Shown: positions 2,465 to 57,788 of the stretch, in pieces
Layout of the letters: every line of letters starts with the position of its first letter
How positions within the stretch are numbered: position 1 is the stretch's first letter
Assembly (NCBI GenBank): GCA_958295975.1
Contig: OY282446.1
Location: 248,001-312,000 of the forward strand
Origin: Tepidiformaceae bacterium
GTDB taxonomy: Bacteria; Chloroflexota; Dehalococcoidia; Tepidiformales; Tepidiformaceae
Length of the DNA stretch: 64,000 bases
Direction of reading: 5' to 3'
Program-made: the position numbers and the translations under genes
The notes under the pieces: model-generated
Seen by the model: the letters and a program-made list of their open reading frames with translations, nothing else
Told to the model about the DNA's origin: nothing
Database searches by the model: none

Positions 2465-2493
2465 TTGACAGCCGCGCGCTCCCTTCGTACAAC
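2465..2493 (+). promoter_or_regulatory. Sigma-70-type promoter of Ig-like gene copy 1
   Basis: TTGACA (2465-2470) and TACAAC (2488-2493) are separated by 17 bp. The same promoter block (TTGACA, similar spacer, TAAATT) precedes the paralogue at 55189, which supports function. The expected transcript start is near 2500, about 25 nt before the ATG at 2525. Confidence 0.75.
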
Positions 2494-2524
2494 TCCATCA
2501 GCGCCCGTCGCGCCGGAGCCTGTA

Positions 2525-5029
2525 ATGAAGCTCACCCCCCCCCCCCCACTTATGGCAAGTTACGCGCTGCGGCTCATCGCGCTCGCGCTCGTCGGCGGGA
2601 CGCTGCTGTTTGCCAACTCCGCCACGCACTCCCAGACGGCCTGCTCCTTCAGCGGCACCGCCGTCCGCGCCCAGACGTACATCGCCGGTACGGCCATCGC
2701 GTCCCCCGGCGCCAACCTCCCGATCACCTTCCCCACGGCCACGGGCTCGGGCTGCACGACGCCCATCGTCTACACCCTCACGCCCGTCGCCACCGCGGGC
2801 TCCACCGGCACGAGCGTGCCCGGCCTCACCTTCAACGGGAGCGCCACGCCGCCCACGCTCACGGGCACGCCCACCGCCCCCGCGGGCTATTCCGACACGC
2901 ACGTGCTCGCCTACACCGCCACGGACGCGAACGGCGACACCGCCACCGTCCAGTACCGCATCACCGTCGAGGCCGACAGCACGCCCACTTTTGCCCGGAC
3001 CGAGTATGCCCAAACCTTCTACGTCGACCGCTACGAAGTCTGGGGCACGCCGCAGGTGGACGGCGGCAACTATTTCGGCACCGGCGGCTCCCAGTACTCG
3101 ATCGCGGTCCCCGACGGAGAGATGGCGAACTACTGGGCCAACGGGCCCCTGCGGCACATCGCCAACGCCCACCAGATGACGGCCCTGCCCACCGCGACGG
3201 CGGCGGAGACGAGCCACGTCTTCACGTTCACGGACCGGGATGGCGACGTCGCCACCACGATGCTCAAGTTCAAGGTGGAGGACGCGCCCAGTCCGGACTT
3301 CTTCCGCGACTCCATCCGCGTGAACTGGATTCTCAACAGCATCCCCCGCAACGACAGCCCGCTGACCTTCGACGGCGCGGGCGGGACGGGCACGACCTAC
3401 GCCCTCAGCGGGACGCTGCCCGCCGGGCTCACCTTCGACGCCGCCCAGCGCCGCGTCACCGGCAGGCCGACCGAGGCCGGCACGTTCGCGCTCACGCTCA
3501 CGGCCACGGACAGCAACGGCGCGAGCGACACGCAGGCCGTCAGCATCTTCGTGTCGCCGACGACCGACCCCAGCACTGCCCCCGCGTTCGCGGGCCGGAG
3601 CGTCCTGAGCTGCACCGAGGTCAGGGTGCACTGGGGGGCGCCGCGCGGGGGCAATCCCCCGGAGGCTGGGTTCACCCTGCCGACCGTCACCGGCTATCGC
3701 ATCGAGGGGAAGCAGCGCGGCGTCGATTCCGACTGGAAGCTCATCGCCGAGACCGGGGCCGCCGCCACCAGCTATACGCACTCCGATCTCCCGCCCGGCT
3801 CGCAGTGGACCTACCGCGTCCGCGCCATCACGGCGGGCGGCGTCAACCCCTGGTCCCCGAACGTGCACGCATCGACGTCCGTGAACCCCAGCAGGCCCTA
3901 CCGCGCGCTGGAGGTGGGGATGACGATCAGCGTCTCCTACCCGACGGCCAGAGGGGGCGAGATCACGCGCTTCGAGTGGTACCGCTCGCCCGATCAGGCG
4001 CCGCTGGACTGGCAGCGCGCCCCCGGAGGCCCGGCGGGGTTCTACGACGTCACGGACGCCGACGTCGGACACCTGATCGGGGTGGCCTTCCCCGGCGAGG
4101 AGTACGTCGCCTGGGTCCACGCCGTCACCAGCCAGGTGACCGTGATCCAGTCCTTCGCCGGCGTCTACGATCCGGTCATCCCCGACGACTCCCCGTCCTT
4201 CGCCGCGAGCGGCGAGCGCATCGTGGAGCCGCCCGCATCCGTCAACATCCAGCTGCCCACGGCCACCGGCGGCAGCGGGACCATCGTCTACGCGCTCAGC
4301 CCCGACCTGCCCGCCGGGCTCGTCTTCGACGAGGACGCGCTCACCGTCACGGGCACGCCCCCGCCCGACTGGACGGGGGACTACGCCTTCACCGCGCGCG
4401 ACGACGACTGCGACATCGCCACCTACACGCTCGCCATCGGCCCCGAACCAATCATCCTCGAACCCGAACCGGAGTCGCCAGCGCCGTTCGTCCCGGCGAC
4501 GCGCTACGGCGCCGTCACCGTCACCGTGGCCGAGGAAGGGAACGCGCCGGAGGACGCGGTCTACGGCGTCCGCCTCGCCTGCGGGCCGTCCGCCTTCACG
4601 CCCGCGCTGGCCGCCGGGGAGAGCTATACCGCCTCGGTCGTGGCGGGCAGCCTCTGCGCGCTCAGCGTGACCGACCGGCAGGGCGCGTCGGAGGTGCGCG
4701 GCGAGTTCGCTGGCCGCCTCATCGGGGAGGGGAGCAGCGCCGCCACCGTCACGCTGGTCCACGAGGCCCCGGAAGAGCGGCTGGAAGCGACGCTGGTGGC
4801 GGGCCTGACCTTCGTGCGCTGGCGGGGCGAGGAGACGCCCGTGGCCGAGGCCGTGGCCGAGCTCACGCTGCGCGTCACCGCCGTGCACCAGTGGGACGTG
4901 GCCACGCAGTCATGGCGCTCCTGGTCCCCCGGCGGCGAGGCCATCCCCGGCATGAACACGCTGGCCGCGTTCGAGCCGGGCGGCATCTACTTCATCTTCG
5001 CCGAAGCGGGGACGGACGCTGCGAACTGA
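2525..5029 (+). CDS. Secreted multi-domain Ig-like/FN3 protein, copy 1 (C13 tract in frame)
   Basis: This is a probable exported surface or matrix protein of about 834 residues. I place the start at ATG 2525 because GGAG (2515-2518) lies 6 nt before it. The alternative ATG 2552, which begins the signal peptide MASYALRLIALALVGGTLLF, has only poly-C before it. Between these starts lies C13 (2535-2547), in frame. After the signal peptide come several putative-Ig (He_PIG) modules with GTYAL/LPAGLTF and VTGRPTEAGTF patterns. A fibronectin-III-like module follows (GYRIEGKQRG ... YRVRAITAGGVNPWS), then another Ig module, an EPEPESPAP linker and a conserved C-terminal domain. No catalytic motif or sortase signal is visible. 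The likely role is adhesion or cell-surface interaction (inference). The paralogue at 55284 shares the N- and C-termini but differs in the middle. Confidence 0.8.
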   Translation: MKLTPPPPLMASYALRLIALALVGGTLLFANSATHSQTACSFSGTAVRAQTYIAGTAIASPGANLPITFPTATGSGCTTPIVYTLTPVATAGSTGTSVPGLTFNGSATPPTLTGTPTAPAGYSDTHVLAYTATDANGDTATVQYRITVEADSTPTFARTEYAQTFYVDRYEVWGTPQVDGGNYFGTGGSQYSIAVPDGEMANYWANGPLRHIANAHQMTALPTATAAETSHVFTFTDRDGDVATTMLKFKVEDAPSPDFFRDSIRVNWILNSIPRNDSPLTFDGAGGTGTTYALSGTLPAGLTFDAAQRRVTGRPTEAGTFALTLTATDSNGASDTQAVSIFVSPTTDPSTAPAFAGRSVLSCTEVRVHWGAPRGGNPPEAGFTLPTVTGYRIEGKQRGVDSDWKLIAETGAAATSYTHSDLPPGSQWTYRVRAITAGGVNPWSPNVHASTSVNPSRPYRALEVGMTISVSYPTARGGEITRFEWYRSPDQAPLDWQRAPGGPAGFYDVTDADVGHLIGVAFPGEEYVAWVHAVTSQVTVIQSFAGVYDPVIPDDSPSFAASGERIVEPPASVNIQLPTATGGSGTIVYALSPDLPAGLVFDEDALTVTGTPPPDWTGDYAFTARDDDCDIATYTLAIGPEPIILEPEPESPAPFVPATRYGAVTVTVAEEGNAPEDAVYGVRLACGPSAFTPALAAGESYTASVVAGSLCALSVTDRQGASEVRGEFAGRLIGEGSSAATVTLVHEAPEERLEATLVAGLTFVRWRGEETPVAEAVAELTLRVTAVHQWDVATQSWRSWSPGGEAIPGMNTLAAFEPGGIYFIFAEAGTDAAN
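2535..2547 (+). repeat. Homopolymeric C13 tract, candidate phase-variation switch
   Basis: Thirteen consecutive C lie inside the first codons after the Shine-Dalgarno-supported ATG 2525. With 13 C the signal peptide and mature protein are in frame (ON). Gain or loss of one C would terminate or redirect translation. The paralogue has 14 C at the equivalent place. Confidence 0.7.
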
Positions 5030-55188: not shown

Positions 55189-55218
55189 TTGACAACTCGC
55201 GGGCTCCTTCCGTAAATT
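55189..55218 (+). promoter_or_regulatory. Promoter of Ig-like gene copy 2
   Basis: TTGACA (55189-55194) and TAAATT (55213-55218) are separated by 18 bp. The surrounding sequence is closely related to that of copy 1 at 2465-2493. Confidence 0.75.
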
Positions 55219-55259
55219 CCGGCCAGCGCCGTCGCGCCCGGAGTCCCCAGTGAAGCACG

Positions 55260-55273
55260 CCCCCCCCCCCCCC
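55260..55273 (+). repeat. Homopolymeric C14 tract, candidate OFF state
   Basis: Fourteen C follow GTG 55250, which has GGAG (55240-55243) 6 nt upstream, exactly as in copy 1. With 14 C the GTG frame is +1 relative to the signal peptide and protein. With 13 C it would be in frame. Confidence 0.7.
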
Positions 55274-55283
55274 GCCGCCGCTT

Positions 55284-57788
55284 ATGGCACGTTATGCGCT
55301 GCGGCTCATCGCGCTCGCGCTCGTCGGCGGGACGCTGCTGCTCGCCAGCTCCGCCACGCATGGCCAGTCGAGCTGCTCCTTCCCCGGCCTTACCATCCGT
55401 GCCGGTACGCTCATCGCCGGCTCGACCTACGCCATCGACCTCCCCCTGGCCTCGGGCTGCTCGGGGACCGTCACCTACACGCTCCCGCCCGACCCCACCC
55501 GCGGCGCGGGCACGGTCCCTCCCGGCCTCACCTTCGACGGGAGCGTGTCCCCGCCCACGCTCACGGGCATGCCCACCGCCCCCACGGGCCACTCCGACCT
55601 GCACGTGCTCATCTACACCGCCAGGGACGCGAACGCCGCGAGGGACACCATCGAGTACCGCTTCACCGTCGAGGCCGACAGCACGCCGGCGTTCGCGGAA
55701 ACCTCGTATTCCAAAACCTTCTACGTGGACCGCTACGAGCTGTGGGAGACGCCGCTGGCCACGGGCGGCAACTACCGCCGGAGCGGCTACTCGCTCCTGG
55801 ACACTGCCACGCCGCCAGCGACAGCAGTCCTGCCAACCGGCCTGCGTTACTATCAGAACGTCGACCAGATAGTCGCCATGTTCCCCGCCGCGGGGAACAA
55901 TGGCATGCCCCAGATATCGTCGTTCGCGACGTCGGCGGCGGCGAACTACACCCTCAAATTCACGGACACCGACGGCGACGAGGCCACCACGACGCTCACG
56001 ATCGCGGTGGCGGACGCAACCAGTCCGGAATTTACGCAGGACTCCGTCAGGATTCTCTGGATACTCAACGCGAAGCCCCGAAACGAATTCTCCTCATTCA
56101 GGCCCGTCATCCTGCACGGCGCGGGCGGCCCGGGCACGACCTACGCGCTCAGCGGCACGCTGCCGGCCGGGCTCTCCTGGACCGCGGCCACGCGCCGCAT
56201 CGACGGCCCCCCCACCGAGGCCGGCACGTTCCCGCTCACGCTCACGGCCACGGACAGCAACGGCGCCAGCGATACGCAGGCCGTCACCATCATCGTGTCG
56301 CCGACGACCGCCCCCCAGAGCCCGACGCGGAGCGTGACTGACTGCACGACGATCGAGCTCGCCTGGGAACCGCCGAACGGGGGCAACCCGCCGCCCTTTG
56401 GCTGGACGGCCCCGACGATCACCGGTTGGCGCATTGAGGGCAAGCAGCGCGGCGTCGACAGCGGCTGGCGTCTCATCGAGGAGGTTTCGTCGTACCTCCC
56501 GCTCGGCTATACCCACTCCGACCTCCCGCCCGGCTCGCAGTGGTCCTACCGCGTCCGGGCGCTCACGGCGGGCGGCGTGAACCCGTGGTCCATCACGGCC
56601 CACGCTTCCACGAAATGGAACAGCGCCAGGCCCTTCCACACGGTGGAGGTGGGCACGGTCATTGGGGCTTTCTCCTATTCGCCAGCCGGAGGCGACATCG
56701 CGCGCTACCAGTGGTACCGCTCGCCCGATCAGGCGTCGCTGGACTGGACTCCCATCGCGGGCGCGACCGAGGGCTTCTACGAGGTCACCGACGCCGACAT
56801 CGGGCAGCTCTTCGCGCTCGGCTGGAAGGCCGACACTTTCTACAACTCGGGGCCCGCCGTGCGGTGGGAGGTGGAGGGGGAGCCGTATCGACTGACGGGC
56901 GCTAACTGGTTCAGTCGGGTCCTCCCCGACAACTCCCCGTCCTTCGACACGAGCGGCGAACGCATCGTGGACCCGGGCAGTCCCGTCAACATCCAGCTGC
57001 CCACGCCCACGGGCGGCACCGGCGTCGTCGTCCACACGCTCACCCCCGACCTGCCCGACGGGCTCGTCTTCGACGACACCGCCTTCACCATCACGGGCAC
57101 GCCTCCGCCCGACTGGACGGGCGACTACGCCTTCACCGCCTACGACGAGGATTGCGACGTGGCCACCTACGCGCTCGCCATCGGCCCCGAGCCGATCATC
57201 CTGGAGCCGGAGCCGCCGCCCGCGCCGTTCGTCCCGGTGACGCGCTACGGCGCCGTCACCGTCAGCGTGGCCGCGGAGGGGGACGCGCCGGAGGACGCGG
57301 TCTACGGCGTCCGCCTCGCCTGCGGGCCGTCCACGTTCACGCCCGCGCTGGCCGCCGGGGAGAGCTACACCGCCTCGGTCGTGGCGGGCAGCCTCTGCGA
57401 GCTGACGATGACCGACCGGCAGGGGGCGTCGCGGGTGCAGGGCGAGTTCAGCGGTCGCCTCATCGGGGAGGGAAGCAGCGCGGCCACCGTCACCGCCGTC
57501 TTCCCCATGGACGGAGAACTGGCGGATCAGCCGGACGAGCGGCTGGAATCGACGCTGGTGGCGGGCCTGACCTTCGTGCGCTGGCGGGGCGAGGAGCGGC
57601 CCGTGGCGGAGGCCGTGGCCGCGCTCACGCTGCGCGTCACCGCCGTGCACCAGTGGGACGCGGCCACGCAGTCGTGGCGCTCCTGGTTCCCCGGCGGCGA
57701 GGACACCGGCGTAAACACGCTGGATACGCTGGAGCCGGGCGGCATCTACTTCATCTTCGCCCAAACGGGGACGGACGCCGCGAACTGA
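55284..57788 (+). CDS. Secreted multi-domain Ig-like/FN3 protein, copy 2 (start out of frame)
   Basis: An 834-residue paralogue of the protein at 2525. Signal peptide MARYALRLIALALVGGTLLL is nearly identical. Putative-Ig modules, one FN3-like module (GWRIEGKQRGVDSGW ... YRVRALTAGGVNPWS), another Ig module, an EPEPPPAP linker and the conserved C-terminal domain follow. That domain has APEDAVYGVRLACGPS and an end GGIYFIFAQTGTDAAN. The central modules differ much more than the ends. ATG 55284 has no Shine-Dalgarno. The Shine-Dalgarno-supported GTG 55250 is shifted by the C14 tract, so full-length translation may be off in this sequence. The position between ctaB and ctaG suggests insertion into an oxidase-assembly block. 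Confidence 0.8.
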   Translation: MARYALRLIALALVGGTLLLASSATHGQSSCSFPGLTIRAGTLIAGSTYAIDLPLASGCSGTVTYTLPPDPTRGAGTVPPGLTFDGSVSPPTLTGMPTAPTGHSDLHVLIYTARDANAARDTIEYRFTVEADSTPAFAETSYSKTFYVDRYELWETPLATGGNYRRSGYSLLDTATPPATAVLPTGLRYYQNVDQIVAMFPAAGNNGMPQISSFATSAAANYTLKFTDTDGDEATTTLTIAVADATSPEFTQDSVRILWILNAKPRNEFSSFRPVILHGAGGPGTTYALSGTLPAGLSWTAATRRIDGPPTEAGTFPLTLTATDSNGASDTQAVTIIVSPTTAPQSPTRSVTDCTTIELAWEPPNGGNPPPFGWTAPTITGWRIEGKQRGVDSGWRLIEEVSSYLPLGYTHSDLPPGSQWSYRVRALTAGGVNPWSITAHASTKWNSARPFHTVEVGTVIGAFSYSPAGGDIARYQWYRSPDQASLDWTPIAGATEGFYEVTDADIGQLFALGWKADTFYNSGPAVRWEVEGEPYRLTGANWFSRVLPDNSPSFDTSGERIVDPGSPVNIQLPTPTGGTGVVVHTLTPDLPDGLVFDDTAFTITGTPPPDWTGDYAFTAYDEDCDVATYALAIGPEPIILEPEPPPAPFVPVTRYGAVTVSVAAEGDAPEDAVYGVRLACGPSTFTPALAAGESYTASVVAGSLCELTMTDRQGASRVQGEFSGRLIGEGSSAATVTAVFPMDGELADQPDERLESTLVAGLTFVRWRGEERPVAEAVAALTLRVTAVHQWDAATQSWRSWFPGGEDTGVNTLDTLEPGGIYFIFAQTGTDAAN

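Follow-up and report, generated by a model that had tools for sequence, protein, structure and literature searches.

Long C/G homopolymers as candidate phase-variation switches in Ig-like surface-protein and sugar-transferase genes of a Tepidiformaceae bacterium

Two Ig-like genes with a cytosine run behind the start codon

The genome of the Tepidiformaceae bacterium analysed here is a single contig of 2,401,284 bases (2.40 Mb). The window, a stretch of 64,000 nucleotides covering positions 248,001 to 312,000 of this contig (OY282446.1), contains two paralogous genes for Ig-like secreted proteins, referred to as copy 1 and copy 2, which both carry a long run of C shortly after a start codon. 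The features of copy 2 are as follows, in window positions.

55189..55218, + strand: sigma-70-like promoter, TTGACA (55189-55194), 18 nt, TAAATT (consensus scan; conservation of the -35 box)
55240..55243, + strand: ribosome-binding site GGAG, 6 nt (TCCCCA) ahead of GTG (direct reading)
55250..55259, + strand: upstream GTG start with its leader codons (GTG AAG CAC G), the RTGAAGC sequence being common to four copies
55260..55273, + strand: homopolymer C14, the proposed slippage switch; 10, 13 or 16 C would be in frame, and 14 C is thus an apparent OFF length
55284..57788, + strand: Ig-like (He_PIG)/fn3 secreted protein of 834 aa, frame intact, +1 relative to GTG 55250
55250..56341, + strand: out-of-frame product of GTG 55250, 363 codons, rich in Arg, His and Pro and not protein-like

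The corresponding features of copy 1 lie near the other end of the window.

2465..2493, + strand: promoter-like TTGACA, 17 nt, TACAAC (direct reading; conserved -35 block)
2515..2534, + strand: GGAG, 6 nt, start ATG 2525 and leader codons (direct reading and conservation among paralogues)
2535..2547, + strand: homopolymer C13, in frame (ON)
2525..5029, + strand: Ig-like/fn3 secreted protein, open from the upstream ATG across the tract (ON)

The C run of copy 2 sits at codon 4 counted from GTG 55250 and is joined to ATG 55284 by the linker GCCGCCGCTT. GTG and ATG lie 34 nt apart (34 mod 3 = 1), which places the GTG frame at +1 and means that a run of 13 C would restore the reading frame. The first-pass annotation had described GGAG, the 6-nt spacing, GTG 55250, the 14 C and ATG 55284, and each of these coordinates and counts holds, as does its statement that the leader is out of frame by +1 and would be joined to the protein by 13 C. 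Read from ATG 55284, the protein begins with a signal peptide (recognised by eye) and contains He_PIG Ig-like domains along with a weak fn3 match, and a model of codon usage derived from the window assigned the segment 55296-57783 to this frame. The consensus scan yielded one match for the copy 2 promoter against 0.0 in shuffled sequences.

In copy 1 the distance between ATG 2525 and ATG 2552 is 27 nt, which is in frame, and the linker that follows the run is ACTT. The two loci therefore present an in-frame C13 and an out-of-frame C14 within one sequence, as the annotation had proposed. Its description of the two genes as having the same promoter and the same start is correct for the TTGACA hexamer and for the position of the start, but the -10 hexamers differ (TACAAC in copy 1, TAAATT in copy 2), as do the start codons (ATG and GTG, respectively). 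The copy 1 promoter scored below the threshold of the consensus scanner. The shared in-frame length of the two tracts, which had also been counted as evidence, is a coincidence that arises from a 6-nt difference between the linkers (ACTT and GCCGCCGCTT).

At their C-terminal ends both proteins have a domain of some 75-100 aa (..HQWDxATQSWRSW..PGGIYFIFA; window 57500-57788 and 4740-5029) that recurs in many large open frames of up to about 4,000 aa in the same genome and its family. The domain may serve in sorting or anchoring and be specific to this lineage.

The Ig paralogues and the choice of start codon

Copies 1 and 2 belong to a family of five, located at 250 (copy 1), 303 (copy 2), 2,087 (copy 3), 1,921 (copy 4) and 332 kb (copy 5) of the genome, the last of which is a fragment truncated at its 5' end. 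GGAG is conserved in all four 5'-complete paralogues together with RTGAAGC and the TTGAC block, and homology among the copies starts at about the -35 box, indicating that the duplicated unit consists of the promoter plus the gene. RTGAAGC is followed at codon 4 by C13 in copy 1 (ON), by C14 in copy 2 (OFF) and by C17 in copy 3 (OFF; ON lengths 15/18). Copy 4 reads GTGAAGCTCG CCCCATCCCC GCTT AGG, in which CCCCATCCCC replaces the pure C run; the upstream GTG is in frame at this broken run, and AGG is found where copies 1-3 have the downstream ATG. Only the upstream start of the pair is usable in copy 4, and for this reason the upstream start (GTG in copy 2) is very probably the real start in all copies, with the run located inside the coding sequence. 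The combination GGAG..RTGAAGC was also considered as a widespread cassette and rejected, since it matches exactly in three of the Ig copies and at just two sites elsewhere.

Alternatively, ATG 55284 could be the true start, with the C run situated in a 5' untranslated region where it would have little or a graded effect on expression. A Sec signal peptide of normal form does start at this ATG, and copies 1-3 all keep the downstream ATG. The OFF frame of copy 3 meets a TAA just beyond the downstream ATG (TTATGGTAAG; L015 4635-4690), so that a low level of re-initiation is conceivable in the OFF state of this copy. However, ATG 55284 is preceded by C/G and CTT only and has no ribosome-binding site ahead of it, conservation of GGAG and RTGAAGC attaches to the upstream start, and the reading of copy 4 in frame from its GTG, with AGG for the second start, makes a start at ATG 55284 quite improbable.

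About one residue in three differs between the Ig copies. Among copies 1-3 the NG86 estimates are about 0.26 for dN and 0.22-0.34 for dS, and the resulting dN/dS near 1 suggests either diversification or relaxed constraint, which leaves purifying selection on these genes not established. Identity along the copies forms a mosaic that suggests gene conversion may have taken place among them. No full-length orthologue of the Ig protein was found in 40 relatives or in a collection of named genomes. No internal stop interrupts copies 1-3, and the OFF copies 2 and 3 remain open for about 830 codons; when neutral decay was simulated at the observed divergence, only about 0.3-2% of the simulations contained zero stops. 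Insertions and deletions between the copies are mostly multiples of three (12/14, 11/13 and 12/14).

These observations bear on the idea of pseudogene decay in copy 2 and the other OFF genes, with neutral expansion of their homopolymers. Features that would fit decay are present in the family and beyond it: copy 5 is truncated, copy 4 lacks 1 nt further along (ATGCCACC versus ATGCCCACC; at about 1,921,400), a deletion that splits the gene into two frames, and one gene for a PMT-type transferase, at 784.5 kb, has a second frameshift. A dN/dS near 1 also fits this idea. The frameshifts in copy 4 and in the 784.5 kb gene reflect either real decay or the fact that indel errors do occur in the assembly. 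On the other side, the long stop-free frames of copies 2 and 3, the preference for indels in multiples of three and the retention of promoter, GGAG and start are not what decay would be expected to leave behind, nor would it readily account for runs of 13-18 that lie far above chance expectation and cluster in envelope genes, and neutral decay is accordingly improbable. A reversible switch predicts genes that are OFF and yet keep a clean frame beyond the run.

Long C/G runs across the genome and in relatives

In the window, 513 C/G runs have a length of 4, 146 a length of 5, 35 a length of 6 and seven a length of 7, which is the longest apart from the tracts of 13 and 14 in copies 1 and 2. Genome-wide there are 18 runs of at least 9, in agreement with the roughly 17 predicted by geometric decay. 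Four of them have a length of 9 and six a length of 10, lengths of 11-12 do not occur, and eight fall in the range 13-18 (13, 13, 13, 14, 15, 17, 17 and 18). For runs of at least 13, extrapolation of the same decay predicts about 0.05 against the eight counted. The gap at 11-12 suggests two populations, namely ordinary runs and long runs. Shared position of the tracts in copies 1 and 2 had been put forward as an argument against chance; chance is indeed opposed by the excess of long runs, but the argument is weaker than it was put because the two genes are paralogues and the common position is partly due to descent and not to independent recurrence.

The genes that carry long runs mostly act at the cell surface or in sugar transfer: they encode He_PIG/fn3 secreted proteins, PMT_2 and Bac_transf proteins, while two further runs lie in genes without known function. 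PMT_2-type membrane glycosyltransferases form a family of about 12 paralogues which are partly clustered (369-384, 606, 778-786 and 924-928 kb, and 1,324 kb). Two members contain pure runs, G18 at 785.7 kb (785,691; L012 3692-3709) and G17 at 1,324 kb (1,323,981; L013 5982-5998), both located after the first transmembrane segment (..GNAALDYV-Gly-rich-..). At the same site the other paralogues that were read have mixed Gly codons, for example GGGGGCGGCGGCGAG or GGGGAGGGGGGGGAT, and are in frame. In the G18 and G17 copies the N-terminal part and the remainder are in different frames (OFF), the in-frame lengths being 17/20 and 16/19, respectively. The PMT_2 family provides independent support, being an unrelated family that shows the same pattern at a fixed site of its own. 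PMT_2 paralogues also share a repeated domain of some 113 aa at the C-terminus, which is present in other genes too, and a search of 39 other genomes returned a weak match in one.

A run of C15 at 87.8 kb occupies codon 3 of a Bac_transf/EPS (exopolysaccharide) sugar transferase. The ATG of this gene overlaps the stop codon of a glycosyltransferase-like gene that precedes it, and relative to this ATG lengths of 14/17 would be in frame, which makes 15 OFF. Of the two genes without known function, the one at 1,960.9 kb encodes a protein of about 185 aa, of a family that is not recognised, and is split by C13 (L014 3936-3948), and the one at 2,360.5 kb has its 13-nt run near the C-terminus (L016 3492-3504). 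Neither has Pfam or NCBIfam matches, the first has no homologue found in relatives, and the ON or OFF state of both runs is uncertain. MutS is encoded in the genome, which leaves loss of mismatch repair, as regards MutS, unsupported as a cause of the runs; any slippage would be due to the length of the run and not to loss of MutS.

All run lengths given here are those of assembled sequence from one genome per species, and homopolymers are error-prone, their counts being what is least reliable in assemblies. It is conceivable that copy 2 truly has 13 C and is ON, in which case its run would be long without being variable. One of the seven loci whose frame can be defined is ON and the other six are OFF, a share not far off the third that random lengths would leave ON. 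Five of the six OFF loci exceed an in-frame length by a single base; the chance of this is about 0.11, and it gives a weak hint of a systematic miscount. What a miscount does not explain is the existence of eight runs of 13-18, their presence in envelope genes and their location at fixed codons of two unrelated families, and other near-complete relatives are without such runs. Moreover, a run of 14 C that was counted wrongly would remain prone to slippage. A miscount is therefore rather unlikely, though far from negligible, as the full explanation. The claim that the majority of cells carry 14 C at copy 2 is on balance probable, with confidence lowered by the errors to which assemblies are prone in counting homopolymers.

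Both RNA polymerase and ribosomes tend to slip on long homopolymers. It could be argued on these grounds that transcriptional or ribosomal slippage on the 14-C template yields some in-frame protein, which would also keep the downstream frames intact. This is quite improbable, since the three copies have different run lengths, which hardly points to a fixed programmed site, and since the motifs named as characteristic of transcriptional slippage are runs of A or T (PMC3711429), whereas the run here is of C.

The nearest named relatives, as identified with a penicillin-binding protein of the window, are metagenome-assembled genomes of Dehalococcoidia/Chloroflexi, and isolate names such as IRC1_bin_31 and APA_bin_86 indicate that their source is apparently sponges. 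In one genome of the same genus (G004) the C/G runs longer than 10 are C15, C16 and a messy cluster that ends in C22 beside an N gap. They are located as follows.

L177 14837-14851: poly-C run
L177 663-844: poly-C run
L178 7107-7122, reverse complement: poly-C run

These runs lie 31-48 nt ahead of the start codons of three paralogous giant secreted proteins, and fn3 domains were detected in both of the two that were scanned. The runs are followed by GAATTTATGTT, GAATATTTGTT or GTTATGTT, with a -10-like element after the run. Some further giant-protein paralogues in this genome and in G001 have no run. One of the G004 proteins downstream of poly-C also has an arylsulfotransferase domain. In a single-contig genome of the same family (G020), C14 lies in a proline-rich linker and the frame changes phase past the run (L179, reverse complement 4842-4855). 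Poly-C in three other genomes of the genus (G002, G003 and G005; up to 443 matches) was discarded as evidence because those runs that were read were mostly low-complexity poly-C/G at contig ends, sometimes beside N gaps. The near-complete relatives G021, G036 and G037 have no such long runs, from which it follows that long-contig assembly is not a general source of them.

The proposed switch and known systems of phase variation

The anatomy of copy 2, as it reads, is that of translational phase variation: an upstream start with what appears to be its own ribosome-binding site, a homopolymer in the early codons and an intact gene beyond. It is proposed, with a probability of about 0.75, that the C run acts as a switch by slipped-strand mispairing, that is, as a contingency locus. 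Ribosomes would bind at GGAG and begin at GTG 55250. With 10, 13 or 16 C the leader would be continuous with the signal peptide and the Ig/fn3 surface protein of 830 aa (ON), and with 14 C, as assembled, translation would continue in a frame without meaning (OFF). A single C gained or lost during replication would flip the gene reversibly between the two states. The sequences themselves show the runs and their excess, where the runs lie, how they set the frame and how the paralogues compare; slippage in cells, its reversibility, the change in expression and the role of the product at the surface are what we infer from this arrangement. The reading of copy 2 as an OFF state, first made from the window, gains support from C17 in copy 3, from copy 4, from the PMT_2 family and from poly-C in the same genus.

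Like runs in two more Ig paralogues, in two PMT_2 genes and in the exopolysaccharide sugar transferase could mean that the make-up of surface proteins and glycans is drawn combinatorially. A broader proposal, plausible yet held tentatively and at slightly less than even odds, is that poly-C/G contingency loci extend over a genus of uncultured and apparently sponge-associated Chloroflexota, intragenic in one species and promoter-proximal in another, and switch Ig/fn3 proteins, PMT-type glycosylation and exopolysaccharide in combination, in a manner resembling antigenic variation. If real, the surface of a presumed sponge symbiont would be diversified in the manner of Neisseria, perhaps against phages, sponge-cell grazing or host recognition.

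Slipped-strand phase variation is a known mechanism, and a full-text search of the open-licence literature returned no earlier report of phase variation in Chloroflexota/Chloroflexi, SAR202 or sponge symbionts. A survey of 99 genomes described an overrepresentation of poly-A and poly-T tracts at the 5' ends of genes as a general regulatory mechanism, with inlA as an example (PMC2831843). The present runs resemble these tracts in their location at the 5' end of the gene and in the frameshift switching that they would allow, but they consist of C/G, in DNA of 73% GC.

The promoter of Neisseria opc is described, in a source that cites Sarkari 1994, as phase variable through poly-C (PMC3447861). 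The G004 poly-C (C15/C16/C22), which lies just ahead of a surface-protein gene, looks like this promoter-proximal type, its promoter geometry being putative, whereas in the window genes the run comes after the start codon and the switch would be translational. Closer to the latter are Neisseria lgtA and lgtC, in which intragenic poly-G tracts 8-13 long bring about phase variation of glycosyltransferases (PMC3447861). Common to both systems are a G homopolymer within the coding region, a frame that is shifted by a change of one base, and genes for envelope glycans. They differ in phylum and gene families, in run length (13-18 here and 8-13 in Neisseria) and in that phase variation is described in Neisseria, whereas the Chloroflexota runs are known from assembled sequence.
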